In this document: in pieces, positions 13,316 through 47,515 of the stretch
How positions within the stretch are numbered: the first letter of the stretch is position 1
Layout: each line of letters starts with the position of its first letter
Assembly: GCA_025454975.1 (NCBI GenBank)
Contig: JALONK010000005.1
Span: 47,896 to 111,895, forward strand
From: Bacteroidia bacterium
GTDB taxonomy: Bacteria > Bacteroidota > Bacteroidia > UKL13-3
Direction: 5' to 3'
Length of the DNA: 64,000 nt
Program-made: the position numbers and the translations under genes
The notes under the pieces: model-generated
Database searches by the model: none
Told to the model about the DNA's origin: nothing
The model's input: the letters and a program-made list of their open reading frames with translations, nothing else

Positions 13316-15499
13316 TTATCTGATTAAATGAAGGGTTCCTTTTAACGATTGCTCGTTTCCTAAACTATCAGTTACATAAATTAGGTAAGTATAAACATCA
13401 GAGGGGGCAGGCTTTAATTTAAATGTGCCGTCCCACCCTGAAATACTTCCGTTTGCCTCATAAACTAATTGACCCCAACGATTATAAATATTCATTATTC
13501 GATTTTTAATGTTTAATCCATTAATATCAAACACATCATTAACACCATCGTTGTTAGGTGTAAATGCATTTGGAACAAAATATTTACCATTACAATCAAC
13601 TTCTTCAAGGTTTATTTCAAACGAATCTTTAAAGCATCCATTAGATACAACCGCAGTATACTTTCCGCCGCTGGCGAGTTGAATATTTTTACTTGAGCTA
13701 CCATCACTCCACAAAATTTCAATAAGAGAGTCGGATTTACCTGAAGTGTAGTTAAATTGAAATGTTTGACTAGCACAAAAAGTTGTATCGAATGAACTTA
13801 CTTTCGGCGGAGAAACAAAAGTAACCGTGCTATTTGCAAAATAGATACATCCAAACGAATCAATGGCTTGTAACTGAATAAGTGTATCATTTGTTACAAC
13901 AATTGAATCGGTGGTTGATATGTTATTCCAATTATATGAACTAAATAGTTGATTAGCTTTAAGCACAACAGGAGTGCCTTTACATGCAATTGTAGCATTA
14001 GAAACTATTGAAACATTTCTGTTTTTGCAATTAAATGCTGTTAAAAATATATCTACAGATGCGCTCCCAAATCCATCATTCAACTGCTTACTTATAGGAT
14101 TTTTGCTTACATAATAATCATTGCTCCTAGTGGTGCCAACTATCCAGTTAATGCTTCCATTATTACAAACACTAAATGGGTAATCATCTTCGAAACCACC
14201 CAAGTATGTTGCCCACTTTGGCTTAAAATCATAGCCAAGATTAAAAATAAATGCATCCATTAAACCATTATTTAATTTTTGAAAGGCATTTTTCTGTGTT
14301 GGAATCAGGTTCTTTTTTTCATATAATAAAATGAGAAGAGAAGAATCAGTACTTTCAATATCGCTTATTCCTACATCATTATTAATAAATCCATTTAATG
14401 CCCATAGCCTTTTCTTTTTAAAACTGGGGTCAATCTCTTGGACAATTATTGCGGTATTACCATTATTGGTTAATACACTTTCAGCAATAGGTTTATAGGT
14501 ATCCAGATTGTTGGTTTTCGATAAAATATATAAGGTGTTTGACTTACTAAATGTTAACTCATCGGGAATATCATTTGGGTGTAGAGGTGGTGAAGCAACA
14601 TAATTTAGCTGAAAATTAGTTTTACTGATACTAATGATATAGGTGCGTTTATTCTTTAAGTCGCTTTCAAATGGATTATTCCTATCAATAATATTATCCG
14701 ACGAGGTCCGCAATAAAAAATGTATGTTATTATTAGCATCAACCGATACATCTACAGGATCTTCATAACCATTACCACCAAAATATGAAGAATAGAGCAA
14801 ATTGCCTGATTTATCTATACAGGCTATAAACATTTCGTCAACCGTACTTGCAACATTTACAGGATTAGCTGTCTGCTGAAAGGCATTCGGTGTTATTGGA
14901 ATACCTATGAATGGAACCTGATTCGGATAAGCTATACTCCCTGCCAACCAAATATCACCATTTAAATCAATCGCTGCCACACTAGGCAAATCAAATCCAT
15001 TCGAACTTAAGGTGCGCGACCAAATAAAAGCTCCATTTGTATCTAACTTTACAAGAATTGCCTCCGCACCTCCCAATTTAGGTCCAAAACTATCATTAAC
15101 CAAAGTTAAGCCCAAACTTCCGTTAAAGGTGCCAACAACATATATAAAGCCCTTTTCATCATAAACCAAACGATCAACGTTAAATGAACTCAATGTATCT
15201 CCAGTTAAATACGTTGCCCAAGCTACAGATTGATTGACATCTAATTTACATAAAACACCAGCTGAAAACTGTGTTCGTTTAATAGGAAATGCTGCATTGC
15301 TGGTAATAATGCTATCTTCATTATCGGTAGTGTAAGCCAAATAAACTGAGCCGGTTTTTGAAGTTGCAAGTTGTGCTGAAGACTCAGTTCCAAAACCACC
15401 GACATAACTACTCCATTTAAGTTGTTGAGCCTTTGTATTTGAAGTTAACAAAACTATCAAAAAAAAACTTTGACATAAGGTTTTACCAACAAATCTCAT
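13316..15499 (-). CDS. T9SS/gliding-motility C-terminal-domain secreted protein, SBBP-like repeats
   Basis: Signal peptide; YSSYFGGNGYEDP-type repeats; C-terminus VPNAFTPNNDGVNDVFDINGL...IYNRWGQLVYEANG...WDGTFK. Confidence 0.85.
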   Translation of the reverse strand: MRFVGKTLCQSFFLIVLLTSNTKAQQLKWSSYVGGFGTESSAQLATSKTGSVYLAYTTDNEDSIITSNAAFPIKRTQFSAGVLCKLDVNQSVAWATYLTGDTLSSFNVDRLVYDEKGFIYVVGTFNGSLGLTLVNDSFGPKLGGAEAILVKLDTNGAFIWSRTLSSNGFDLPSVAAIDLNGDIWLAGSIAYPNQVPFIGIPITPNAFQQTANPVNVASTVDEMFIACIDKSGNLLYSSYFGGNGYEDPVDVSVDANNNIHFLLRTSSDNIIDRNNPFESDLKNKRTYIISISKTNFQLNYVASPPLHPNDIPDELTFSKSNTLYILSKTNNLDTYKPIAESVLTNNGNTAIIVQEIDPSFKKKRLWALNGFINNDVGISDIESTDSSLLILLYEKKNLIPTQKNAFQKLNNGLMDAFIFNLGYDFKPKWATYLGGFEDDYPFSVCNNGSINWIVGTTRSNDYYVSKNPISKQLNDGFGSASVDIFLTAFNCKNRNVSIVSNATIACKGTPVVLKANQLFSSYNWNNISTTDSIVVTNDTLIQLQAIDSFGCIYFANSTVTFVSPPKVSSFDTTFCASQTFQFNYTSGKSDSLIEILWSDGSSSKNIQLASGGKYTAVVSNGCFKDSFEINLEEVDCNGKYFVPNAFTPNNDGVNDVFDINGLNIKNRIMNIYNRWGQLVYEANGSISGWDGTFKLKPAPSDVYTYLIYVTDSLGNEQSLKGTLHLIR

Positions 15500-21767: not shown

Positions 21768-22658
21768 TCAATTGTTTTTAATGATTCTGGTTGTAATTAT
21801 TGTATTTTTTGTGTTTAATCTAGCCAAATAAACCCCTTCGCTTAAAAAAGAAAGATTAATTGCACCCTTCGGATTTATTTGCTCGAACAACATCTCACCC
21901 CTAAGATTATATACACTAATATAACTAACATCTTCGGCAAAGTTTGAAATATTAATTTCATCCTTAAAAGGATTTGGATACAATGAGTTTAAATTTGACA
22001 ACAACAGTTCTTTTTCGCCACTCGGACGAACGATATATAAATCGTCAATAATTAACTCAGAACCTACATTTGGGTTAAATCCATCAATACTGCTTGAAAA
22101 GAAAATTTGCATGGAATCAGCGATTGCCTGAGAATAATATTCGAAGAACACAATTTTATTCGTGAATTCCTGAACAGTATCGCTTAATATTATTCTTGCC
22201 ATAGCAATTGTATCCGTTTTTGCATTTACATCATTCCATTTAGTAAGCATCATGTATGCTAAACAACTATCATTATTAACAGGATAATATTTATATGAGA
22301 AATTAAATGAGGCCGGTTGACCACTAAATGGAACTCGCATTTTAGTGAAATCAGGTTCATTACGTTTGTTTAGCAATGGCCCCGTGCATAATAAACCGGG
22401 AATGTTTTGAAAATTATTAGCAATACTAACTAACCTAACTGCATAACCTCCATTATTACCCGATACTTTAGTTGTACTTGGTTCGTACCCAAAAATTGTG
22501 AGTGGATTTAAGGTAAACCACCCTGACGGATTTTCAACATCATTAAGGGCTTCCCAATTATTAAAATCGCCATTTAATAACGATTGTTGTGCTGATACAT
22601 TGCTTACCGTTAGTAAACATGCACCTAACATGATGAGGATGATAGCTGTTGTTTTCAT
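21768..22658 (-). CDS. Secreted protein with T9SS type A sorting domain
   Basis: Signal peptide; C-terminus LNSLYPNPFKDEINISNF...LRGEMLFEQ...LSEGVYLARLNTKNTIITTRIIKN. Confidence 0.8.
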   Translation of the reverse strand: MKTTAIILIMLGACLLTVSNVSAQQSLLNGDFNNWEALNDVENPSGWFTLNPLTIFGYEPSTTKVSGNNGGYAVRLVSIANNFQNIPGLLCTGPLLNKRNEPDFTKMRVPFSGQPASFNFSYKYYPVNNDSCLAYMMLTKWNDVNAKTDTIAMARIILSDTVQEFTNKIVFFEYYSQAIADSMQIFFSSSIDGFNPNVGSELIIDDLYIVRPSGEKELLLSNLNSLYPNPFKDEINISNFAEDVSYISVYNLRGEMLFEQINPKGAINLSFLSEGVYLARLNTKNTIITTRIIKNN

Positions 22659-24669: not shown

Positions 24670-27600
24670 TTATTTATCCTCTCTTAATAAGGTAACTGTG
24701 CCGTTTAAGGTTTTAGATTCCCCATTTAGCAGTTCGTACTTGAACACATAGAAGTAAGTTCCGGTAGGACATTCACTTCCATCATTCATATTTGTACCAT
24801 CCCAATCTAGTAAAGGATTCTTACTTTCAAATACTTTGTTACCCCAACGGTTATATATCACTAAATCGTATGATTTTTCACCTTTAATTTCAATATCAAA
24901 TACCGGATTAGTTCCATCACCGTTAGGGGTAAACACATTAAATATCTTCATTTCTACAACAAATCGATATTCAATGGTATCACAAACCTTGTCAACACAA
25001 GTAGGTTTGGCCGGATCGGCAGTGTATGCCTCTAGACATATTATAACATCGCCCGTATCAGTTTGAAAATCAAATTCCCAATCTATGTTCGAACCTCCAA
25101 CTGCGTCCTTCGACCTTACCACTGTATTTGGATCTTTTAGCCATGCTGCTGTCCAAGTATAATCTGAAGCACTTTGCGAAGTATTTCTGAAAACGAATTT
25201 TGGACTATTAGGAGCTGAATCTATAACAAAAGAAGCAAATGGTCGAACAATGCGTATTGCAACAGTATCCTCCAACGGACAGTTAGGTAAGTTTGGTTTA
25301 ATACCTGTTGGCGTTAAACGAATATAAAAATAACCAGTGTCACTAATAGTGAATTGAACAGCAGTGTCTGTAACAGGTTTGTCTTCAACTTGAACAATAC
25401 GACCGGTAGTTGTATCAATAATAGTGTATCTAAAGCCTGTATAACTTACGGTATCACTTCTATTGAATACGGTAAACAACTGATCAACGCAGGCAACTTG
25501 TCTATCAATAGCTGCTACAACAGGATACGATTTCTTTACTTGTATTTTTATTGCTTGGTTAATACCGTCGGTTGTATCAGGGAAGAATAAAATTTTACAC
25601 CCATTATTATTCGATTGAGGATTGTTATCATCACTTCTAGCGAATATAAAGAACGTACCTTCATCATTATAAGTGAATTCTAAAGTATCAGGTGAATTAA
25701 GTGAGGCTGTTTGTTGATTATTAGCATCACCCCACGAGATAATAGTTGACCTCGTAGGTGTATCTGCAGCATTTCTGCCTCCAAACCTATCAGCTAAATT
25801 TACCACTCTAACTTTAAACGGAGCACATCCAACTGTATCGCTAATTACTTTAATAAATGGACGAGGACCTGAAATGTATAGGTTAGCAAAACCAGTGTCT
25901 TTACATCCTTGATGGGATTCTATCACCAATTTAATTCTAAATTCTCCGTTTCCTCTATATAACCAAAGCGCTGTATCAATGGCCGAAGCGTCAAATCTTA
26001 AAGTATCAGTTTTACGCTCGCCAAAGAACCAATAGTTTGTTTTTAAACTATCATAAGGAGCTCCGGGAACCGCACCGGTTATATCACGCATAAAACTACT
26101 ATTGTAGAATGTAACGATTTCACCACAATTATAAATTCCCGGTTTTATGGTAGGTATTGATACAGGATCTGTTACTATAACTACACAATAAGTTGTATCC
26201 CAACAGCCATTTCTGTCCCTGCTTAATAAGGTAACATTGTACCTTCCGGGGTTTTTATATTTATGAATTGGTCTGGTGATAGACGAAGAATCTCCATCGC
26301 CAAAATACCATTTCACTTTTTCTACATAAGAACCATCAGGATTAAAATCGTTGATATTTCTAGAACCATTTCTCCAGTAATCAGCTGTATCATAATGATA
26401 GCTATCGAACGGAGGATCAAGAGGAATGCTAGGTGTAGCATTCCATGCTAAATTTGGATTGCCGTTTACAGGATCGGATAAAGAACAATCAGGTCTAAAG
26501 TATCTGATTGAATCATAAAAATGAACAGGTTCATCTTTACAGAAGATTGAATCAAATTGACCTTTTTCGTTTCTTACCATAGCTGAATCTATTACTCCGC
26601 GCACCAACAATTTATTATCAATTGCGATTTTGCGACATTCATAGGTACTACCTAAGGAATGAAAAACAGCAGTTGGAGTAGTTCCGGGACGTTTGCAACC
26701 ATCTTCATATGAACTAGACCAATATGTGTGTTGCACTGGAAGCAACATTTTTGATAAATCTTGAATATCTCTTAAATAGAAGGTTTTCAAAGTGTCTGCG
26801 TCTTTTACCCAGAAGGTACGACCGCATTCCTGCCAGCGGGTTGAATCACCTTGACGACCAAGATTGAATAATGATCCAAAAATATTGGTAGAAGAATTGA
26901 ATATTCTTGCAGAATAATTATCCCTCCATATGGTATCTAAATCAATACCAGGTAAGCCATTAGGAAATACTATAGAGTCATAGATAATTGGATCTGTAAG
27001 TTCACCACATTTTCCATAATATAATTTGTAACGTACCCTTCTGAAACCGTCAATAAAATATCCATCATTTTGTCCAGGTTTTCCGTAATAGAAACTATCT
27101 ACATAAACTGAATGATCGCCCCAAGCTATTGTACTGTGCTTAAGATTTTGCTGAGTACTGTCTAAGTAAACAAAATTAACTCGGTCGGTTTTACAGTACA
27201 ACTTACAAGGACCGTTAGAAACAGTCCAATTAATGTTATCATATACAGGATCAATGAAAAACCTTGCGTCTAAATCTCCGAAGTACAAGAAATTATGATA
27301 CCATACAGTATCTGAAACACATGGATTTGTAGGGTCACCACTTCCAATAATTAAACCAACGGTAACCCATCCGGTTGGATTAGCAGGTGGCACTAATGGA
27401 ATTCCGTTACCGGCAGGACCGGGACCATAATGATACCAGAAACTTGTGCCTGAACCATCACCCCAAACATTTGGAGGACCCATAAACCATTGACCATAGT
27501 CAGGATTATTTGCAAATGGAGGTCTAGATAATCCACCAGGAGTTGTTGAAATTGCACCAGGGTTTGGAGCAGCTCCAGAAAAATCCACAAATCCATCTAA

Positions 27601-30171
27601 TTGACAAGGAGTTTGATCTAAACGATCAGCCATTGAATCGTGATTAAAACGAATAAATGATTGACCACAATCCGGTGCAACACCTGGATAATCACCTAAT
27701 CTACCACTTACACTTCCTAACATAAATTGAATACCTGCTTGGTCCGGGCTTGCTCTTAAACCAGGACACTCAACCCCTCTTTTACCTAAACCTCTGGCAT
27801 CAGGCTCCATCATTTTAAGTTGAATCTGATCATCATGTTCACAATCAAGAGAATCTAATTTGGTAAAGTCGCCAACAACCAAATTGGTCTTTTTACCTAC
27901 GTTATTCTGGGTGTCTTTGACAAATTGTTCAACCGTAAAACAACGCTGTATACCCCTGTTAAACATATAACGATAAAAGGTTGTAGGATCTGGCTGGTTA
28001 GGAATTAAACTATCATAGTGATGTTCAAAGAACCTACCGTCTTGACTTGTATACTTAAGCCTGAATGTATCCCTTACCGGGTCGATTAAAGTTCCACGGG
28101 GGATAAATCCGTAACCGCCTTGACCATTGAGCGTATTGCCCCAAAAGCCCGCAAATGGATCAGGAGCACCGTTATTTAATGTTATTCTATTCCATGGTTC
28201 TAAATCTTGAGGTGCAGGCTGACCATTCTCGTCAACCGACTCTACTGTATCAATTCTTGGCCATAAACCATAAGGAGCCGGACCACTTCCTTGAACAAGA
28301 GACCATGTTCCATCATCAGGTTTTAAGTAAACAGGTTTACCCCAATATAATGTATCCCAAGGTTGTACCCATATTCTTCCACCTGCATTAGGAGGCAATA
28401 AAGTATCAGCAGGATTTCTAGTATACCTGTTCAAGTCCCATGGCATAAAATCATGGCCATAACGATACCAACGGTAAATTACGTCCCAACTGGTGTATCT
28501 ATGCATTGGTAGTGTATCAGCCGAATAATTACAATCAAGACGTTTACCTTCAAAAACTTTGTTTCCTTGACGCCAGTATCCGGTACTATTAGAGAACTGA
28601 TCTGCCGCTGTTGACCAACCACCTAAAGGAGGAAAACCCGGATTAGGTACTAAGTATGAAGTACATTGAGGAGCAACAGGATCATCAAAATTCCACCTGG
28701 TAAATACACGATCTGATTTATAACGTTGACCGGTATTTACAAACTCAACATTTCTATAATAACCACTCGGTAGTGGTTGGCATTGATTTTTTTGATTTGC
28801 TGCAATAGTTATACCATTAGGTGGATCCTCAATCCTTGCTCGTGGACCGAGAACTTCTACAGGCATGATTAGTGTTTTATTACAAGGTGCCGGACTTAAT
28901 CTTAAACGAACATTATACAATCCCAGTCTGGTAACAAATGTGTGAGGTAATTCCCAAAGTGCATTATTAAAATTTAATTGCATGGAGTTAGGGTCATCAA
29001 AAAACCATAACAATTCACCATTACCCGGGTTAATTAACTCATTAGGCGTTTGTTTAAAGAAATATGTTCTTTGCCCTTCATTACCCCAACATACAGAATC
29101 TCTTCTTATGATTGGTGTATCACGTGCACTTAAAACATGAATGGTATCAAATTCGATTTTAATATTTTCAGGTTTGTTACCGGTTGTAGTTGGCGACATT
29201 CTGAAACTATCAATACAACCAGTAACGTCCTCAATAATTAAAGCCGGGAAAAAGCGTCCGTTTTTAGTGTATTTATGATAAATTGTATCATAATTCAACT
29301 CATCTTTTGGAAGTATCCAAGGTTTCTGTCTGGTTACAGAATTACCATCGCCAAAATCCCATGTATATGCCTTCACTTGAGAAAAAGGAACTAATGGCAA
29401 AGTTCGATTCTTAAACATATACTGTGAAGTATCGCAATTTCTTGTGCCAAAAACATCAAAGCTAGGTGTAATATTGCTTTTAATGGTAATTAAGCCTGAG
29501 TATGTTGTTTCATTAAAACATCCCTTATTGTCGGTTACTTTAATTGTTATATTATAAGTACCGTTAGTATTATATGAGTGAGAGAATGTAAGTCCTGGTG
29601 TAGGATTAGTAGCTGTTGCAATTCTACCGTCGCCCCATAGTCCTAAAAAATCAACAATATCATTATCAGTTTTCTGACTTTGATTTACAACGGTAACTAA
29701 ATTCCCTCTAAAACATTGGATTGGACTTCCACTAACTGTAGCTGCTGCAATTGGCAGTCGGTATACAATAACGTTTGCTGTTTGCGATGCAGTAACACCG
29801 GTGGTAACAGCCCTTATTGTTTTCGGACCCGGCGTTGTGTAGGTATATCTAAAGTTGTATGGTCCGCTTCCGGGAACAGTACCTTCAAATACACCATCAT
29901 TATCCATATCAAAACTAATACCTGTTGCGGTTCCTCCTGTAACAGAGGCGTCAATAACTAACTCATCACCTAAACATATTTCATTTGTGCTTGGCGTAAG
30001 GGTGATGGATTGGGCATGAATGTTGGTAGAAAATAATACCATCAAAAGCCCAAAGACCACAGAAAATACGAATGTTTTTTTCATTCTCATGTTTGTTTGT
30101 GAAGCTGATCCCAAAACTTTGTTGGTTCCGGGAGGAGCATCAAGTTGTTTGTTGTAATGAAATGCTAACAT
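24670..30171 (-). CDS. Very large (1833 aa) PKD-type secreted protein with gliding-motility/T9SS C-terminal domain
   Basis: Repeated YTWDFGDGNSVTRQ / WYFGDGDSSSITRPIHKYKNPGRYNVTL PKD units; C-terminus MKIFNVFTPNGDGTNPVFDIEI...IYNRWGNKVFES...WDGTNMNDG. Confidence 0.88.
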   Translation of the reverse strand: MLAFHYNKQLDAPPGTNKVLGSASQTNMRMKKTFVFSVVFGLLMVLFSTNIHAQSITLTPSTNEICLGDELVIDASVTGGTATGISFDMDNDGVFEGTVPGSGPYNFRYTYTTPGPKTIRAVTTGVTASQTANVIVYRLPIAAATVSGSPIQCFRGNLVTVVNQSQKTDNDIVDFLGLWGDGRIATATNPTPGLTFSHSYNTNGTYNITIKVTDNKGCFNETTYSGLITIKSNITPSFDVFGTRNCDTSQYMFKNRTLPLVPFSQVKAYTWDFGDGNSVTRQKPWILPKDELNYDTIYHKYTKNGRFFPALIIEDVTGCIDSFRMSPTTTGNKPENIKIEFDTIHVLSARDTPIIRRDSVCWGNEGQRTYFFKQTPNELINPGNGELLWFFDDPNSMQLNFNNALWELPHTFVTRLGLYNVRLRLSPAPCNKTLIMPVEVLGPRARIEDPPNGITIAANQKNQCQPLPSGYYRNVEFVNTGQRYKSDRVFTRWNFDDPVAPQCTSYLVPNPGFPPLGGWSTAADQFSNSTGYWRQGNKVFEGKRLDCNYSADTLPMHRYTSWDVIYRWYRYGHDFMPWDLNRYTRNPADTLLPPNAGGRIWVQPWDTLYWGKPVYLKPDDGTWSLVQGSGPAPYGLWPRIDTVESVDENGQPAPQDLEPWNRITLNNGAPDPFAGFWGNTLNGQGGYGFIPRGTLIDPVRDTFRLKYTSQDGRFFEHHYDSLIPNQPDPTTFYRYMFNRGIQRCFTVEQFVKDTQNNVGKKTNLVVGDFTKLDSLDCEHDDQIQLKMMEPDARGLGKRGVECPGLRASPDQAGIQFMLGSVSGRLGDYPGVAPDCGQSFIRFNHDSMADRLDQTPCQLDGFVDFSGAAPNPGAISTTPGGLSRPPFANNPDYGQWFMGPPNVWGDGSGTSFWYHYGPGPAGNGIPLVPPANPTGWVTVGLIIGSGDPTNPCVSDTVWYHNFLYFGDLDARFFIDPVYDNINWTVSNGPCKLYCKTDRVNFVYLDSTQQNLKHSTIAWGDHSVYVDSFYYGKPGQNDGYFIDGFRRVRYKLYYGKCGELTDPIIYDSIVFPNGLPGIDLDTIWRDNYSARIFNSSTNIFGSLFNLGRQGDSTRWQECGRTFWVKDADTLKTFYLRDIQDLSKMLLPVQHTYWSSSYEDGCKRPGTTPTAVFHSLGSTYECRKIAIDNKLLVRGVIDSAMVRNEKGQFDSIFCKDEPVHFYDSIRYFRPDCSLSDPVNGNPNLAWNATPSIPLDPPFDSYHYDTADYWRNGSRNINDFNPDGSYVEKVKWYFGDGDSSSITRPIHKYKNPGRYNVTLLSRDRNGCWDTTYCVVIVTDPVSIPTIKPGIYNCGEIVTFYNSSFMRDITGAVPGAPYDSLKTNYWFFGERKTDTLRFDASAIDTALWLYRGNGEFRIKLVIESHQGCKDTGFANLYISGPRPFIKVISDTVGCAPFKVRVVNLADRFGGRNAADTPTRSTIISWGDANNQQTASLNSPDTLEFTYNDEGTFFIFARSDDNNPQSNNNGCKILFFPDTTDGINQAIKIQVKKSYPVVAAIDRQVACVDQLFTVFNRSDTVSYTGFRYTIIDTTTGRIVQVEDKPVTDTAVQFTISDTGYFYIRLTPTGIKPNLPNCPLEDTVAIRIVRPFASFVIDSAPNSPKFVFRNTSQSASDYTWTAAWLKDPNTVVRSKDAVGGSNIDWEFDFQTDTGDVIICLEAYTADPAKPTCVDKVCDTIEYRFVVEMKIFNVFTPNGDGTNPVFDIEIKGEKSYDLVIYNRWGNKVFESKNPLLDWDGTNMNDGSECPTGTYFYVFKYELLNGESKTLNGTVTLLREDK

Positions 30172-30197: not shown

Positions 30198-31238
30198 TTA
30201 ATCTTTTAATCTTAGTAGAATGGTTCCATTATATACTTTGGCCGTTTGCATAGATTTGGTTTGGTACCTAAAAGCTAGAATATAATTACCTTCTTCACAT
30301 CTAGTGCCATTGTACATATTAATACCATCCCAAACATTATTTTTATGTGAACTTTCAAACACTAACTTCCCAAATCCATCTAAAATTTTCACCTCATAAA
30401 ACACCAATTCCTCTTTACATTCAATAACAAAGAAATCATTTATACCATCATTGTTAAAAGGTGTAAACACATTTGCAACATTAATCTCACTAAAGTCTGA
30501 GGTGTTTTGCAAACTTATTCCCCCTTCATTACTTATGGAGATCCCCTTGTTGGTTGAATCGTTTGATTCAGTGGTTAATATTGGTTCGTCAGAAGGTTGG
30601 TAGGCAGGTTGAGAAGTGTCTTTCCCTATTGGTTTAGCTAACTCTACGGTTGAATTAGAACCGGCAGTTGAACTCTCCGTTGATGAGGCATTGGTTGTTT
30701 GTTGCAATGCATCAGTATCAGGTTCAGCATCTGTATTTATTGTTTGAGGCTCTTCTACAATTTCATCAATTACTGCAATTCTCTCCTGTTCAACAGGTCT
30801 GATTGTTTTAGTCTCAACTATTCTTTGTTTCTGTTGTTCAGGTTGAGGTTGAGGTTTTGTAGTATTTGTTTCCGGTTCCGGAGCAATTAATTCCTCCAAG
30901 GCATCAACTTTAGGGCTGGCCTCTACCCACTCTGAAGGTTCACTTAAATCCTGTGTGAGTTCGCTTGATGAAGAAACCAATTGAGTACTATCAGCCTTTG
31001 CATTTGTAAGCAATTGATAACCTGTGATTGCTGCAATGGTTGTAACTGCAATTGCAGCAACTGTAATTATTTTGCCACCTATTGTGCCACCTTTAATAGC
31101 ACCGGAGACTTGTTTACTTGCGTGTGAAGCTTGAACAGTCGAAGAATTGAGGTTATTACTTAAGCTATTCCAAACCTCGGAAGGTGGATCTACCTTAAGT
31201 TCGCCTAACTCCTGCTTTAACAATTCGTCCAAATTCAT
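30198..31238 (-). CDS. Anti-sigma-factor-like single-TM protein with a gliding-motility-associated C-terminal domain
   Basis: N-terminal MNLDELLKQELGELKVDPPSEVWNSLSNNL, TM IITVAAIAVTTIAAITGYQLL, low-complexity linker, C-terminal NVFTPFNNDGINDFFVIECKEELVFYEVKILDGFGKLVFES...WDGINMYNGTRCEEGNYILAFRY. Confidence 0.75.
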   Translation of the reverse strand: MNLDELLKQELGELKVDPPSEVWNSLSNNLNSSTVQASHASKQVSGAIKGGTIGGKIITVAAIAVTTIAAITGYQLLTNAKADSTQLVSSSSELTQDLSEPSEWVEASPKVDALEELIAPEPETNTTKPQPQPEQQKQRIVETKTIRPVEQERIAVIDEIVEEPQTINTDAEPDTDALQQTTNASSTESSTAGSNSTVELAKPIGKDTSQPAYQPSDEPILTTESNDSTNKGISISNEGGISLQNTSDFSEINVANVFTPFNNDGINDFFVIECKEELVFYEVKILDGFGKLVFESSHKNNVWDGINMYNGTRCEEGNYILAFRYQTKSMQTAKVYNGTILLRLKD

Positions 31239-31251
31239 AATCGGTTAAGTT

Positions 31252-31788
31252 TTACTTTGCTAATTTTAATAATTCTTCTTGCAATATGGCTCTTGCTCTA
31301 CTCAATTGTGATTTTGAGGTTCCCTCAGATATACCCAACATTTCACCAATCTCTCCATGTGAATATCCTTCTATAATATACAAGTTAAGAACTGTTCGAT
31401 AACCCGCTGCCATCTTGTTCATTACATCTAAAATTTCTTTTCTCGAAATTTTCTCTAAGGTAAAGTCATGATGCGGATTCGATTCCGCTTCCATTGTATC
31501 AGCATGATACATGTGAACTTTATTAATCCTGTAATATTCAAGAGCGCAATTGATAAAAATTCTTTTCATCCAACCCTCAAAAGCTCCGGATCCATTGAAT
31601 TGGTCTATCTTGGTAAAAACCTTGATAAATCCTTCTTGAAGAATGTCCTTTGCCTCTTCTCCACTGTTGCTGTATCTTAAACAAACACCAAACATAGTTG
31701 AGGCGTAAGCATCATATAATGCTTTTTGGGCTTTCCGGTCGCCTTTAATACATTGGTGTATAAGTTTTTGATCCTGCTCTTTTGTCAC
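31252..31788 (-). CDS. ECF-type RNA polymerase sigma factor
   Basis: LYDAYASTMFGVCLRYSNSGEEAKDILQEGFIKVFTKIDQF and sigma4 YSHGEIGEMLGISEGTSKSQLSRARAIL. Confidence 0.9.
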   Translation of the reverse strand: MTKEQDQKLIHQCIKGDRKAQKALYDAYASTMFGVCLRYSNSGEEAKDILQEGFIKVFTKIDQFNGSGAFEGWMKRIFINCALEYYRINKVHMYHADTMEAESNPHHDFTLEKISRKEILDVMNKMAAGYRTVLNLYIIEGYSHGEIGEMLGISEGTSKSQLSRARAILQEELLKLAK

Positions 31789-31919
31789 TTTATTTTTACC
31801 GGTTGTTTTTAATGATGGAATTTAGCCCACTAAGGTTGCAATATATTTTGATTTTTTCTTAAAAAAACGTAATTGAAACCACTATATGGATTCAATTGTA
31901 TAATTTAGTGAAATAAATT

Positions 31920-34900
31920 TTGAAATTGAATAAACGTTGGCTCATAAGTATTGCAGTTTTATTTATAATTCTGTTAATTGATAAACAGGCACTTGCGCAA
32001 AATAATCCTGATATCAATACCGGATTTATTGCCAATCGTGGTCAATGGGAAAACAGTTCTCAATTTTTATTAAGTGCAGGTACCTTCGAAGCATTTTTCC
32101 ATCCTGATGGGATACAATATTTCTTTCAAAACCCAAAAGATGTAAAAGATTTCTTCGACCACCAAACCAATCCACATCTATTAAAATCAAAAAAAATTGA
32201 ATGTTTTGCCTTTCAATTAAAATTTGATGGAGCATTAACCCCTGAGATAATCGGAGAAAACAAACAAAAACACTTCTTAAATTTCTTTCAGGGAAATCAG
32301 CCGTCTTCTTGGAGATCTAATGTTCCTGTTTATCAGAAGCTTAGATATGTGAATTTATATTCATCTATTGACTTAGTTTTCTACAATCCTTATTCATACA
32401 ACCTTAAGTATGACTTTATAATTAAACCCGGGGGTAATATTGAAGATATTAGCATGACTTACCATGGTGCTACTTCAATAAATTTGAAGAAAGGTAATTT
32501 AGAAATTAAAGGAGGCTTTGCTTCTATTCTTGAACAAAAACCATTTGCTTATCAGGTAATACGTGGTGACACAATTATAGTTCCTTGTAGATTTGTTGTT
32601 ATAAAGAATCAGGTTCGCTTTAATGTTGACCCGTACAATCCTGAATTTCCATTAATTATTGATCCACAGCTAGTTTTTAGTACGTATAGCGGAAGTTCAG
32701 TTGATAATTTTGGACATGCTGCAACATACGATGACCAAGGAAATCTTTATACAGCGGGGATTGCAAGAAATCCTACAACTTTGGCAAATGGTAAATATCC
32801 AACCACTAGTGGCGCATTTCAAGTGATTTGGGGTGGTGGTGTAGGTTCGTGGCCACAAGCCGGTTTCCCATGCGATATTGCGGTTAGTAAATATAATAAT
32901 GATGGGAGCAGCTTGTTATATGCCACATATATTGGTGGGTCACTTAATGAATATCCTATAAGTATAATTGCCGACAAAAATAGTGATTTGGTGATGCTAT
33001 CAGCCGTTTTATCTGCTAATTTTCCAACTACCCTTAATGCAATTCAAACCATCAAATCAGACTCATTCGACATCGCTTTAACCAGATTTAATAGTAATGG
33101 TACACAATTAATTGGAAGCACATATTTTGGTGGGAACGGAATTGACGGATTAAACGTAGGAGATTCGCTTAGAATGAATTATGCGGATGAGTTTAGGGGT
33201 GAGCTTATTATTGCGCCGAATAGCGACATTTATGTTGTTTCTAATACAACTTCTAGTAATATTACTACCTCCCCTAATGCTTTCCAGAATATAAAACAGT
33301 TTGGACAAGATGGACTGATTTTTTGTACCAATAATTTACTTACCCAATTAAAACATTGCTCATATTTTGGTAGAGAAAAACAAGATGCCCTTTATTCCAT
33401 CGACTTTGATTTTAATGGAAATGTTTTGATAGCAGGTGGTACACAAAGTACTACCTTTACCCCTACAGCAGGCTTTAACTTCGCCCAAAATAGAGGTGGG
33501 ATTAGCGAAGGATTTATCGCTCGATTAACGCCATCATTACAATCGTTAACAGGTTTCAGATATTGGGGTGGGGCAGACTACGACCAAGCTTATTTTATCA
33601 AAACCGACCCCACAGGAAATCCGGTTGTTTTCGGACAATCTTTTGATAGTTTGTCGGTAACTTCAGGCGTTTATCAAAATACTTCGGGCTCTTTATATGT
33701 TACAAAATTCAGTGCTGATTTGGGTCAAATCATTTTTTCGACAAGATTAGGTAATGGTGTTTCAAGAAATGCATTATCGCCCAGCGCTTTTATGGTAGAT
33801 GTTTGCGGACGAATTTATGGCTCCGTCTGGGGTGGGGCTGTAAACTTTCAGTCGCGCTATCGGTTATTAAATCCTGCCACTTTCTCAAGCACTACTAACA
33901 ACTTACCGCTATCCGCTGACGCCTATCAAAGCAATACTGACGGAAGCGATTTTTGGCTATTTGTGCTCAGTCCATCAGCTGATAGCTTATCTTACGCGAC
34001 CTATTTTGGAGAAATAAATGATGCCGACCACGTTGATGGAGGAACAAGCAGGTTTGATAAACGTGGAATTGCCTATCAATCCATATGTGCAAGTTGTAAC
34101 ACCGGGTTATTTGGAAGTCTGCCCACCACTTCAGAAAGTTTTTCACCCCAAAATAAAAGTCCAAGATGTAGCAATGCTTCACTAAAATTTGATTTCAGAC
34201 AAGGCAATGTCTTAACTGCTGATTTCAAACCTTCGCCAAGAAATGGATGTAATGATAGCAGCGTTCGTTTTGAAAATACATCATACAATGCCACCCGTTA
34301 TTATTGGTTTATTAATAACGTGTTGGTTGACAGCACTGTAAATTTAGAAAAAACTTTTACCAGTACCGGTACTTATAAAATTAAGTTAATTGCCTTTAAC
34401 CCCGGGGCCTGCAATGCCATTGATAGCAACGAAAAAGAAATTAAGATTGATGTAGGCGTAACAGCTTCCTTTTCAATTTCGCAAGATACTTGTGGAAGAA
34501 ATATCCAATTTAATAATTTAAGTAAAGCTAAAAACAATGCTGTTGTACCATTTTTATGGGAGTTTGGAGATGGCGATACTTCAACACTCTTAAATCCAAA
34601 ACATGCCTACACAGATAACGGTGTATACCTTGCCAGGCTAATTATGAATATTGGAAGTCATTGTGCTGATACTGCTACTTTATTGATAAACTACGATTCG
34701 ACAGGGCAAAAAATAAAAGCAACCATAAGCCCTATTCCAATATTACTTTGTGAACCAACATTGGTTAAAATTCGTTCAACCGACACTAACGTTGGTATTC
34801 ATCAATGGCGTATGGATAATAAATCAACAAATTACGGTGCCGGTGGATTTGATACTATTTTATTTGCAGGTATTTATAAAGTTAGCTTAGTAAAATCAGA

Positions 34901-36488
34901 TAGCATTTCTTGCAATAAATCTGATACGGCATCAATTGTATTATCTGTTTTTAAAGAAACTTTTCCGGAATTTAGCTACACTTTAGACTCATGCTTGCTT
35001 AAGGTATCATTCAACAATCTATCTAGTGCTGCAAGTGGAGATACTGTTAACTATTTATGGCTTTTTGGAGATGGGAATTTCTCTACCTCAGTAAATCCTG
35101 AATATAGATATGCGGATACCGGAACTTATCAGGTAACGTTATGGGTGAACAGAGGCTTTTTATGTGAAAAAATATTAACAAAAGAAGTAAAGGTATATCC
35201 AAGCATTAGATTTTTAAATGCAGCTTTCATCGTCAATAAAAATCCTTTATGTGAACCCGATACTTTAAAGTTGACTAACGTAAGTACAGGTGCAAATAAA
35301 TCTTATTGGCTGATAAATGATGTACTCAAAGATAGCACTTCTAACTTTGAAGCATTTATACAAACGCAAGGTTCAATAAAAGTTAAGCTTGTAGTTATAA
35401 ACCCTAATGGCTGTAAAACTGCTGATACTACGGAAAAAGAAATAATATCGGCAGCTAAAGCATTAGCATCCTTTTCAGCGCTTAGAGACTCTTGTACATC
35501 GCTTATAAAAATAAAAAACAATAGTGTAAACTTTAGCAGTTCACCAATTACCTATACATGGTTATTAGGAAACGGTAATATAACCAACGATGTAAACCCT
35601 AACATTCAATATGACACCAATGGTTTATACAAGATTACATTAATTGTAAATAATGGCACAGCATGCGCAGATACAGCGGAACAAATAATTTTTTATGATA
35701 GTTTAAGCCATATTCTTGATGTTGATTTACAAATCAAGGATTCGCAGTATTGCTCTCCTGCTTATATAAGTGCTTTTAAAACCGGTATTGGTGGAAAGCA
35801 ACTATCGTTTTTGCTCAACGGTATTTTAAAATCTACTGATTCGGTATATAAGGATACTATAAATTTACCGGGCAGATATATTTTACAATTAATTGTTAAG
35901 GATAGTATTAGTTGTAAAAAAGCTGATACTATAACCAAACCTATTATTGTATCGGCAAAACAAGAAGCTGCATTTAGTTTGTCTCGCGACAGTTGTTCAC
36001 TTCGAGTAAAATTTATTCCAGCCTCCGGCACTAGATTACCATTAAACTGGTATTTTGGCAATGGTGACAGCAGCAACCAATTAATCCCGGAATATGAATA
36101 CCGAGAAGCCGGTGTTTATAAAATAATGCTGATAACCGAACCGGAAAGTTTTTGCGCAGATACCATGGTTTTAGAAACTTTGATTGATGGTGATAGTGTT
36201 GAAACGGTTAATGTTCCTAATGTTTTTACCCCTAATAAAGATGGGCTTAATGATTGTTTTTTTGTAAAAGGAGCAACTGCTACTTGTGATGAATATTTTA
36301 TTGAGGTGTATAATAGATGGGGGCTTCCGGTATACAGAAATGATGATGGAAGCAGATGTTGGAATGGTAAAACTTTTAATGGTGATGACCTTCCATCAGG
36401 TGTTTATTTTTACATCATGCGAATTAAAAGAAAAAACGGCTTTCAACTGGAAGATAATGGAACCATTAGCCTAATTAGAGAAGAATAA
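31920..36488 (+). CDS. Very large (1522 aa) secreted gliding-motility C-terminal-domain protein with PKD-like repeats
   Basis: Signal peptide; LWEFGDGDTSTLLNPKHAYTDNGVYLARL units; C-terminus VNVPNVFTPNKDGLNDCFFVKG...EVYNRWGLPVYRN...WNGKTFNGDDLPSGVYFYIM. Confidence 0.87.
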   Translation: MKLNKRWLISIAVLFIILLIDKQALAQNNPDINTGFIANRGQWENSSQFLLSAGTFEAFFHPDGIQYFFQNPKDVKDFFDHQTNPHLLKSKKIECFAFQLKFDGALTPEIIGENKQKHFLNFFQGNQPSSWRSNVPVYQKLRYVNLYSSIDLVFYNPYSYNLKYDFIIKPGGNIEDISMTYHGATSINLKKGNLEIKGGFASILEQKPFAYQVIRGDTIIVPCRFVVIKNQVRFNVDPYNPEFPLIIDPQLVFSTYSGSSVDNFGHAATYDDQGNLYTAGIARNPTTLANGKYPTTSGAFQVIWGGGVGSWPQAGFPCDIAVSKYNNDGSSLLYATYIGGSLNEYPISIIADKNSDLVMLSAVLSANFPTTLNAIQTIKSDSFDIALTRFNSNGTQLIGSTYFGGNGIDGLNVGDSLRMNYADEFRGELIIAPNSDIYVVSNTTSSNITTSPNAFQNIKQFGQDGLIFCTNNLLTQLKHCSYFGREKQDALYSIDFDFNGNVLIAGGTQSTTFTPTAGFNFAQNRGGISEGFIARLTPSLQSLTGFRYWGGADYDQAYFIKTDPTGNPVVFGQSFDSLSVTSGVYQNTSGSLYVTKFSADLGQIIFSTRLGNGVSRNALSPSAFMVDVCGRIYGSVWGGAVNFQSRYRLLNPATFSSTTNNLPLSADAYQSNTDGSDFWLFVLSPSADSLSYATYFGEINDADHVDGGTSRFDKRGIAYQSICASCNTGLFGSLPTTSESFSPQNKSPRCSNASLKFDFRQGNVLTADFKPSPRNGCNDSSVRFENTSYNATRYYWFINNVLVDSTVNLEKTFTSTGTYKIKLIAFNPGACNAIDSNEKEIKIDVGVTASFSISQDTCGRNIQFNNLSKAKNNAVVPFLWEFGDGDTSTLLNPKHAYTDNGVYLARLIMNIGSHCADTATLLINYDSTGQKIKATISPIPILLCEPTLVKIRSTDTNVGIHQWRMDNKSTNYGAGGFDTILFAGIYKVSLVKSDSISCNKSDTASIVLSVFKETFPEFSYTLDSCLLKVSFNNLSSAASGDTVNYLWLFGDGNFSTSVNPEYRYADTGTYQVTLWVNRGFLCEKILTKEVKVYPSIRFLNAAFIVNKNPLCEPDTLKLTNVSTGANKSYWLINDVLKDSTSNFEAFIQTQGSIKVKLVVINPNGCKTADTTEKEIISAAKALASFSALRDSCTSLIKIKNNSVNFSSSPITYTWLLGNGNITNDVNPNIQYDTNGLYKITLIVNNGTACADTAEQIIFYDSLSHILDVDLQIKDSQYCSPAYISAFKTGIGGKQLSFLLNGILKSTDSVYKDTINLPGRYILQLIVKDSISCKKADTITKPIIVSAKQEAAFSLSRDSCSLRVKFIPASGTRLPLNWYFGNGDSSNQLIPEYEYREAGVYKIMLITEPESFCADTMVLETLIDGDSVETVNVPNVFTPNKDGLNDCFFVKGATATCDEYFIEVYNRWGLPVYRNDDGSRCWNGKTFNGDDLPSGVYFYIMRIKRKNGFQLEDNGTISLIREE

Positions 36489-46036: not shown

Positions 46037-47515
46037 TTATAAAACAACCAGTTTTTTAAAGTATTTCTTATCATCCACAATTATTTCCATCCAATAAATC
46101 CCTTGATGTAAAGACTCATTCATATTAAGATATTGGCAGTTTATACATTCTTTTGTTAACACTTTATTTCCATTAGCATCATAAATAATTGCTTGAACTT
46201 GTGAATATACCTTGTCTAAGTCAATTGTTATGCTACCAAAATTAGGTTGCGGAAAAACCTGTATTTTGGCATCATTAATAAACATGCTTTGGGTTGATGT
46301 AGTAGAAGACAGATTAAATATCCTTGCTTGTCCCGACTCCATTCCATTCGTTGCGTGAAATGGAGCTCCGGCTGCAATGGTATTTTCATCAGGCATGCTT
46401 ATTGACCAACCAAAACGGTCGCCGGCTGTTTGTCCATATATTTTATTTGCATAAGGCTGCCAACTCGTTCCATTCCATTTAACAATCCTAACCTCTCCTG
46501 CATCTACTCCATTTGCATCACTTCCTGAACATCCGAATGCGAGTAAATTTTCGTTCAACATCATTACAGTCCATCCGGCACGATCGCCGGCATTATCGCC
46601 ATACAAATCACTTCCTTTTTGTTGCCACGAAACTCCATTCCATACCAATACTTTAACTAAACCTGCATCCATTCCATTGGCATCGTGATAAGGCGACCCA
46701 ACAGCCATTGTATTGGCATCGGCCATGTGCACCGACCAGCCAAAGCGGTCGAATGGTGCTTGTCCCACAACCTCATCACCTTTTTGTTGCCAATTAATTC
46801 CGTTCCATGTAAACACACGAACCTGGCCAACATCTGTTCCATTATCATCATGTTGAAGAGCACCTATTGCAACTGTGTTTGCATCGGGCATGCTTACCGA
46901 GTTGCCTGAAAAGTCGCCGGTTGCAGAGCCATCAATATCAGCGCCTTTTTGCACCCATGAATTATTTTTCCATTCAAAAATACGTACATGACCGCTTGCT
47001 GTTCCTGAATCGCCGGTATTTGCGTAGGCACCAACGGCTAAGGTATTTGAATCGGGCATTGATATTGAATTACCGGAATTGCTGCTGTCTGATTCTCCAT
47101 TAATATTATTCCCCTTTTGAATCCATTCAACACCATTCCAACGATATACGCGAACATGTCCACGATTTATTCCTCCTCCATCATTTAATACAGCACCAAT
47201 CGCCAATGTGTTTGCATCAGGCATAGATACAGCATTGCCAAAACGATCATCAGCCGCTGCCCCTATAATAGCTTTTCCTTTAATTATCCAATTATTATTA
47301 ACCCAACTAAATACCCTCACCTGTCCGGCATCTGTGTGAATACTATCATGATAATAGGCGCCAACCGCAATGGTAAAAGCATCGGGCATACTAACTGAAC
47401 AACCGGCTCTATCACCTGGATTTAAACCCAATATCGCATTACCTTTTACCAGTTGCGCATGTAAGGTTGTATTCATACTAAAACAAATAAAAAAAACGTA
47501 CGCCTTATTTATCAT
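46037..47515 (-). CDS. Secreted repeat protein with T9SS sorting domain
   Basis: Seven about-55-aa repeats (MPDANTxAxGA...GQVRVFxWNGxxWxQKG...GDRFGxSxS) and a C-terminal FPQPNFGSITIDL...QGIYWMEIIVDDKKYFKKLVVL. Confidence 0.83.
   Translation of the reverse strand: MINKAYVFFICFSMNTTLHAQLVKGNAILGLNPGDRAGCSVSMPDAFTIAVGAYYHDSIHTDAGQVRVFSWVNNNWIIKGKAIIGAAADDRFGNAVSMPDANTLAIGAVLNDGGGINRGHVRVYRWNGVEWIQKGNNINGESDSSNSGNSISMPDSNTLAVGAYANTGDSGTASGHVRIFEWKNNSWVQKGADIDGSATGDFSGNSVSMPDANTVAIGALQHDDNGTDVGQVRVFTWNGINWQQKGDEVVGQAPFDRFGWSVHMADANTMAVGSPYHDANGMDAGLVKVLVWNGVSWQQKGSDLYGDNAGDRAGWTVMMLNENLLAFGCSGSDANGVDAGEVRIVKWNGTSWQPYANKIYGQTAGDRFGWSISMPDENTIAAGAPFHATNGMESGQARIFNLSSTTSTQSMFINDAKIQVFPQPNFGSITIDLDKVYSQVQAIIYDANGNKVLTKECINCQYLNMNESLHQGIYWMEIIVDDKKYFKKLVVL

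Follow-up and report, generated by a model that had tools for sequence, protein, structure and literature searches.

Why does a protein encoded directly behind an ECF sigma factor, and resembling a membrane-bound anti-sigma factor, end in the sorting domain of T9SS cargo? The question is raised by a tight minus-strand operon (31788-24670) in the window, by which we mean the whole 64,000-nucleotide stretch of DNA that was analysed. The operon runs from the ECF sigma gene (31252..31788, minus strand; 178 aa, GTG start; assigned with Pfam, NCBIfam and orthologue alignment A2) through the gene of a 346-aa anti-sigma-like protein (30198..31238, minus strand; ORF call, Pfam and NCBIfam) to that of an 1833-aa PKD surface protein. 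This giant protein, the presumed output of the operon, is encoded at 24670..30171 on the minus strand and was recognised by family matches, among them a type B C-terminal domain (CTD) of the CHU_C family; its CTD (24694..24948, minus strand) has the NRWG signature intact. A first-pass annotation, made from the sequence alone, had put the two smaller genes at the same positions and had reported giant cargo genes on both flanks. Both points stand: besides the giant protein on the same strand, a divergent DUF7948/PKD/CHU_C protein with a type B CTD is found by family matches at 31920..36488 on the plus strand, and a large divergent ORF occurs at 32 of 39 loci.

The giant ORF begins about 25-45 residues ahead of an ordinary signal peptide (window 30088-30171). 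The same early start was seen in L043, L046, L047, L048, L050, L069 and L070, and an 'MLA' start recurs across several genera; it may be a genuine N-terminal extension or a mis-called start. Other T9SS cargo is encoded in the window at 13316-15499, 21768-22658 and 46037-47515, one being of type B (CHU_C) and two of type A (Por_Secre_tail).

Recurrence of the fusion was examined in two sets of loci. For the first set, 147 related genomes were searched with the protein and 38 loci from 38 genomes were compared, 35 in the family and 3 elsewhere in the class, each picked because one of its short ORFs matched the CTD suitably. The sigma gene was followed by a CTD protein of about 300 aa (four reach about 470 aa) in all 38 of these relatives' loci; this selection means that the count speaks for conservation of context, not for prevalence. 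An ORF of more than 1000 aa came next in 36 of the 38 loci, and the intergenic gaps were mostly a few bases or overlaps. For the second set, the anti-sigma profile (A1) was run against 396 genomes of the class and 40 short-ORF loci were chosen blind to sigma. A sigma gene lay directly upstream of the CTD protein in 40 of 40, 39 by script and one (L199) by eye, as the called ORF of L199 starts inside the sigma gene and the calls overlap. About 14 of the 40 loci matched over the CTD only and had been taken for ORF length and a nearby giant CTD ORF, which leaves the sigma count unbiased and biases upward the count of downstream giants. A CTD gene lay directly downstream in 24 of the 40 loci and none was flagged there in 16, one of these running off the contig. 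Matches over both ends were seen in at least about 48 of the 396 genomes (by eye, a rough lower bound). Further CTD-type partners come from MAGs that bear the label Flavobacteriales or, in one case, Chlorobiota, a label that may be wrong (L173, L179, L163). The best-matching complete-chromosome record in a sigma-alignment scan of named genomes was Bacteroidetes bacterium UKL13-3 (L115).

The sigma factor matches Sigma70_r2 (4.8e-14) and Sigma70_r4_2 (1.5e-14) in Pfam. In B. theta, ECF21 sigma factors are paired with Dma1 and Dma2, proteins made of an anti-sigma segment, a transmembrane helix (TM), a disordered tether and a beta-barrel (PMC13088901). The sigma factor of the window resembles this ECF21 type, to which it may belong, and is related to sigma factors whose partners carry barrels. 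A putative ECF autoregulatory promoter, TTGCAACC-N16-CATC, is located at 31814..31841 on the minus strand, 25 nt ahead of the codon with which the sigma gene starts. Sites of the form GCAACC-N16-C[AG]TC precede the sigma gene in 25 of 39 loci against 0.56 expected from shuffles, the expectation coming from simple shuffles and the sequences being related to each other; such sites also precede sigma genes with a CTD-less partner in some cases. In the 3.4-Mb genome the extended motif matches exactly at two places, the second within an ORF, and has no clear occurrence ahead of other genes. A wider regulon was sought with a relaxed form of the motif (one mismatch) and rejected, 299 sites against 209 in the reversed control being too many to interpret. 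Judged by gene arrangement, the conserved, adjacent, co-directional genes and the autoregulatory promoter-like motif are those of a sigma/anti-sigma pair.

The putative sigma-binding segment is the cytoplasmic N-terminus of the 346-aa protein (residues 1-40; 31119..31238, minus strand). It carries the motif NIDelLkq...pP..vW..I, conserved in alignments A1 and A9, and was assigned with the help of hhalign and AF2. With hhalign, the N-terminal segments of CTD-type partners aligned with those of non-CTD partners (98.7%, E 1.7e-16, 37 columns); the latter were drawn from related loci, several with a barrel match, Dma1/2 themselves being outside the set. AF2 was applied to one relative, L053, with a joint input made of the sigma factor, the natural intergenic stretch (stop codons as Gln) and the anti-sigma protein. 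The pLDDT of anti-sigma residues 11-20 and 21-30 was 93 and 96 with the sigma factor and 84 and 76 alone; because the joint and single runs were unequal in length and alignment and gave no inter-domain error, this rise is support for sigma binding, not proof of it. Fold matches of the joint model were ECF sigma factors, many of the top ones being sigma chains from anti-sigma complexes. The segment is predicted to bind and inhibit the sigma factor. We consider the sigma/anti-sigma pairing well supported: the cognate anti-sigma role suggested at first pass agrees with the conserved operon, with the N-terminal homology to Dma-like proteins and with the gain in segment pLDDT next to the sigma factor. 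The PP..W..I segment seems to be tandem-duplicated in some partners, with and without a CTD (L216:1904-3349, L118, L119, L120, L124).

Behind this segment a single transmembrane helix (residues ~57-80; 30999..31070, minus strand) comprises 24 uncharged residues preceded by a Lys. Each member of the first set, which numbers 39 with the window protein, was predicted to have exactly one TM, near residues 40-80, with a median uncharged stretch of 21 residues and a mean net charge of +1.8 before and -0.3 after it; these charges and the Lys indicate an N-in/C-out topology. A signal-peptidase-type x-x-A-Q site was present in 58 of 62 giant proteins against 5 of 82 anti-sigma proteins. In the window protein the TM-length helix starts at residue 57 and is without the x-x-A-Q site, and a cleavable Sec signal peptide was not recognised. 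Residues 81-251 (30486..30998, minus strand) form an acidic tether taken as disordered from its composition and from the pLDDT of a relative: 171 aa, net charge -22, rich in S/T/P/Q/E. In L053 the tether pLDDT was below 50 over most of its length with the sigma factor and about 45-56 alone. Short forms of the protein have tethers of about 125-157 residues. At about 0.35 nm per residue, an extended tether would measure tens of nm, enough to span a periplasm. In longer relatives (L075, L076, L080 and several of L194-L233) a PKD-like stretch separates the TM/tether from the CTD.

The only families above cut-off in the 346-aa protein, in Pfam and NCBIfam, were CHU_C (PF13585, 4.9e-15, 55.9 bits for a cut-off of 27) and TIGR04131 (3.3e-11, 43.2 bits for a cut-off of 35); neither a FecR domain nor a barrel family matched it in these two collections. 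It was the only full-length match in its own genome, 12 others aligning to the CTD alone. The architecture that had been read from the sequence at first pass, i.e. a short cytoplasmic segment, one TM, an acidic linker and a T9SS-type CTD, is real.

The CTD itself (30201..30485, minus strand) was delimited from family matches and the model of a relative. Its relationship to type B CTDs is strong by profile comparison (hhalign, 4.8e-40), and all 43 scanned wider members match CHU_C/TIGR04131. In the relative's anti-sigma protein, modelled alone, the CTD has a pLDDT of at least 92, and Foldseek ranked 8glk_D, a T9SS substrate in a translocon complex, second (E 4.9e-3) amid unrelated Ig-like domains. 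One could accordingly imagine a generic Ig-like periplasmic sensor of the giant protein or of another ligand, with no link to T9SS, and the absence of pair-specific similarity would suit it: the anti-sigma CTD is 37% similar to the giant CTD of its own operon and 37% similar to other CTDs, values for which co-evolution with the operon's own giant CTD was rejected. The strength of the profile match, the retention of most type B motifs other than RWG, and the constant company of sprA, present in 58 of 58 checked genomes with the fusion or its near relatives, make this sensor very unlikely.

What sets the anti-sigma CTDs apart is the site of the cargo NRWG signature, which in the window (30369..30380, minus strand; profile alignment and window sequence) reads DGFG. 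In one profile alignment, RWG was found in 0 of 76 anti-sigma CTDs against 84 of 88 other type B CTDs, and the looser pattern R, then W/Y/F/H, then G in 3 of 76 against 85 of 88; the 88 come from the same loci and genome and do not amount to a survey of all type B cargo, and the 76 cluster and are not independent. One of the four RWG exceptions among the 88, L199, is in fact an anti-sigma CTD. In the window genome, 11 of the 12 other CTDs have RWG and the twelfth AWG, and the solved cargo GhpA carries NRWG. Among the anti-sigma CTDs the site is variable, as though under relaxed constraint. Once the RWG columns were removed, the anti-sigma CTDs still clustered in the CTD tree, with six label changes; the tree allows a single origin of these CTDs, and the RWG loss may be one event passed down by descent.

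The protein could still be ordinary type B cargo whose N-terminus happens to be long, its first 80 residues an odd signal peptide and the neighbouring sigma gene incidental. The genuine CHU_C/TIGR04131 domain is what such cargo would carry. We rejected this reading, which we regard as hardly credible, on the cytoplasmic motif conserved and shared with non-CTD sigma partners, the TM-length helix devoid of a cleavage motif, the loss of RWG and the sigma gene upstream in every class-wide locus. The CTD keeps the cargo fold and lacks RWG, and that it is not ordinary cargo is well supported. On its sequence features the protein looks like a tethered cargo look-alike. The first-pass annotation had held that the periplasmic end mimics cargo, and this is supported, the end being a true type B CTD, with the qualification that the RWG signature of cargo is missing.

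What would such a look-alike do? The pair is best explained as one of Dma architecture that carries, in place of the outer-membrane beta-barrel, a type B T9SS sorting domain in a non-cargo form. We propose, and give this an even chance, that the protein is a trans-envelope anti-sigma factor which, by docking on the T9SS exit, makes expression of the giant surface protein depend on export. The tethered CTD would reach the inner face of the outer membrane and plausibly dock there on a T9SS exit part that handles CTDs, either the SprA translocon or a PorP/SprF shuttle; the window genome has sprA and three PorP/SprF genes, the three on another contig. With its other end fixed in the inner membrane and with RWG absent, the protein would not leave as cargo. 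At a free exit, docking would pull on the tether and release the sigma factor, which would switch on its own operon and with it the giant surface protein; at an exit filled by cargo, the CTD would be displaced and the sigma factor held again. Speaking against the proposal are the equal similarity of the CTD to the giant CTD of its own operon and to others, the lack of a PorP/SprF gene next to the locus, the chance that RWG was lost in a single inherited event, and the 16 class-wide loci with no CTD gene flagged directly downstream. We tentatively suggest, as a possibility only, the full scheme in which a membrane-tethered look-alike, non-exportable through its RWG loss, probes the exit and gates an autoregulated sigma factor, the giant protein being made only when it can be exported. 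More generally, the arrangement, conserved in many Bacteroidota, may mean that cells tie production of the giant surface protein to its export machine.

The first-pass annotation had suggested that the periplasmic domain may sense T9SS load or a secretion block and so control sigma release. Taken as an alarm, this would mean that piled-up cargo displaces or binds the CTD and releases the sigma factor for a stress response to blocked secretion. A cargo-like domain in the periplasm and adjoining cargo genes accord with this alarm, but its visible target is the operon of the cargo itself, so that switching it on would add to the block, and the promoter motif is without clear occurrence ahead of other genes. 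We judge the alarm unlikely and, on logic only, prefer the sign 'export available = ON' to 'secretion block = ON'.

A different signal is envisaged if the protein is a Dma-like surface anchor, its CTD exported via SprA and held outside by a PorP/SprF-like carrier; the protein would then span the envelope and sense an outside or mechanical cue, T9SS occupancy not being the signal. The Dma layout and the related sigma factor fit this reading, as do the PKD matches in 9 of the 43 scanned wider members, PKD being a displayable domain, and the finding that type B substrates remain bound to their carrier (PMC9143113; PMC12635249). Against it, RWG is absent from every counted anti-sigma CTD, and secretion of SprB requires every one of five conserved motifs in its CTD, mutation of any one having stopped export (PMC12618676); the RWG site may or may not lie in one of the five. 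We consider the surface anchor somewhat unlikely, and keep docking at the exit by a CTD that stays in the periplasm as the preferred reading.

How a sorting domain came to stand where Dma proteins have a barrel can be approached from the sigma side. In named genomes, what follows a relative of the sigma factor is in most cases a protein that shares a similar N-terminal segment and lacks a CTD, and OMP_b-brl_2 matches 29 of 66 non-CTD partners of related sigma factors. The window-type proteins have N-terminal homology to these barrel-type partners, one TM and a long disordered tether; in Pfam and NCBIfam the C-terminus of the window protein matches CHU_C and no outer-membrane beta-barrel, so that we call this protein Dma-like and not a member of Dma. 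In the sigma tree (L043-L233), CTD and non-CTD partners are interspersed, requiring nine changes of which at least two are forced. A single origin of the CTD fusion was rejected on this ground; repeated swaps or losses of the C-terminal domain are likely, their count being unsure. On the evidence of this family, Dma-like anti-sigma factors may carry in their C-terminal part an exchangeable outer-membrane probe.

The Dma architecture was already known; the systematic RWG alteration of the anti-sigma tag is newly observed here. The first-pass annotation is supported on the cognate anti-sigma factor and on cargo mimicry, and had neither the Dma precedent nor the RWG loss. The RWG difference divides these regulators sharply from cargo at the level of sequence; proteins of this kind should therefore not receive an annotation as secreted, and the difference singles out residues that export may require. 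We know of no account of how Bacteroidota keep the making of giant surface proteins in step with T9SS capacity, and a search of the open-access literature found no description of an anti-sigma factor with a T9SS domain. The family offers a testable system in many genera and, if the proposal is true, a class of secretion-coupled gene control previously undescribed.

Among known systems, Dma proteins come closest, with an N-terminal sigma-binding segment, one TM, a long disordered tether, a C-terminal domain directed to the outer membrane, a neighbouring ECF sigma gene and a place in Bacteroidota. Unlike Dma, which ends in a beta-barrel, the window protein ends in a T9SS type B sorting domain, its type of operon usually runs on into a giant type B cargo gene, and the fusion was found here in genomes with T9SS. 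With the SprB/SprF type B cargo and PorP/SprF shuttles it shares a homologous CTD and the motifs FTPNGDG.ND, W[DN]G and G.Y (PMC12618676, PMC9143113). It differs from that cargo in the absence of RWG and of a cleavable signal peptide, in its membrane anchor and in having no PorP/SprF shuttle gene adjoining the locus. In Porphyromonas gingivalis, PorA acts through PorXY on SigP (PMC7712824), so that there too a CTD-bearing protein feeds an ECF sigma factor, one controlling T9SS genes. PorA, however, is a surface protein acting through a two-component system, whereas in the window the CTD and the presumed anti-sigma segment belong to one inner-membrane protein whose visible target is one cargo operon. 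In FecR-type signalling, an inner-membrane anti-sigma factor reaches an outer-membrane partner, a TonB-dependent receptor, to control an ECF sigma factor; the window protein would share this reach, with the T9SS exit machinery as partner and without the FecR domain. Finally, in the FlgM/sigma-28 flagellar checkpoint a soluble anti-sigma factor, FlgM, leaves the cell. The proposed logic is alike, by analogy and not by homology, in that an anti-sigma factor reports whether a secretion machine can export; in contrast to FlgM, the window protein has a membrane anchor and a changed tag, which would make it a tethered reporter instead of an exported anti-sigma factor.
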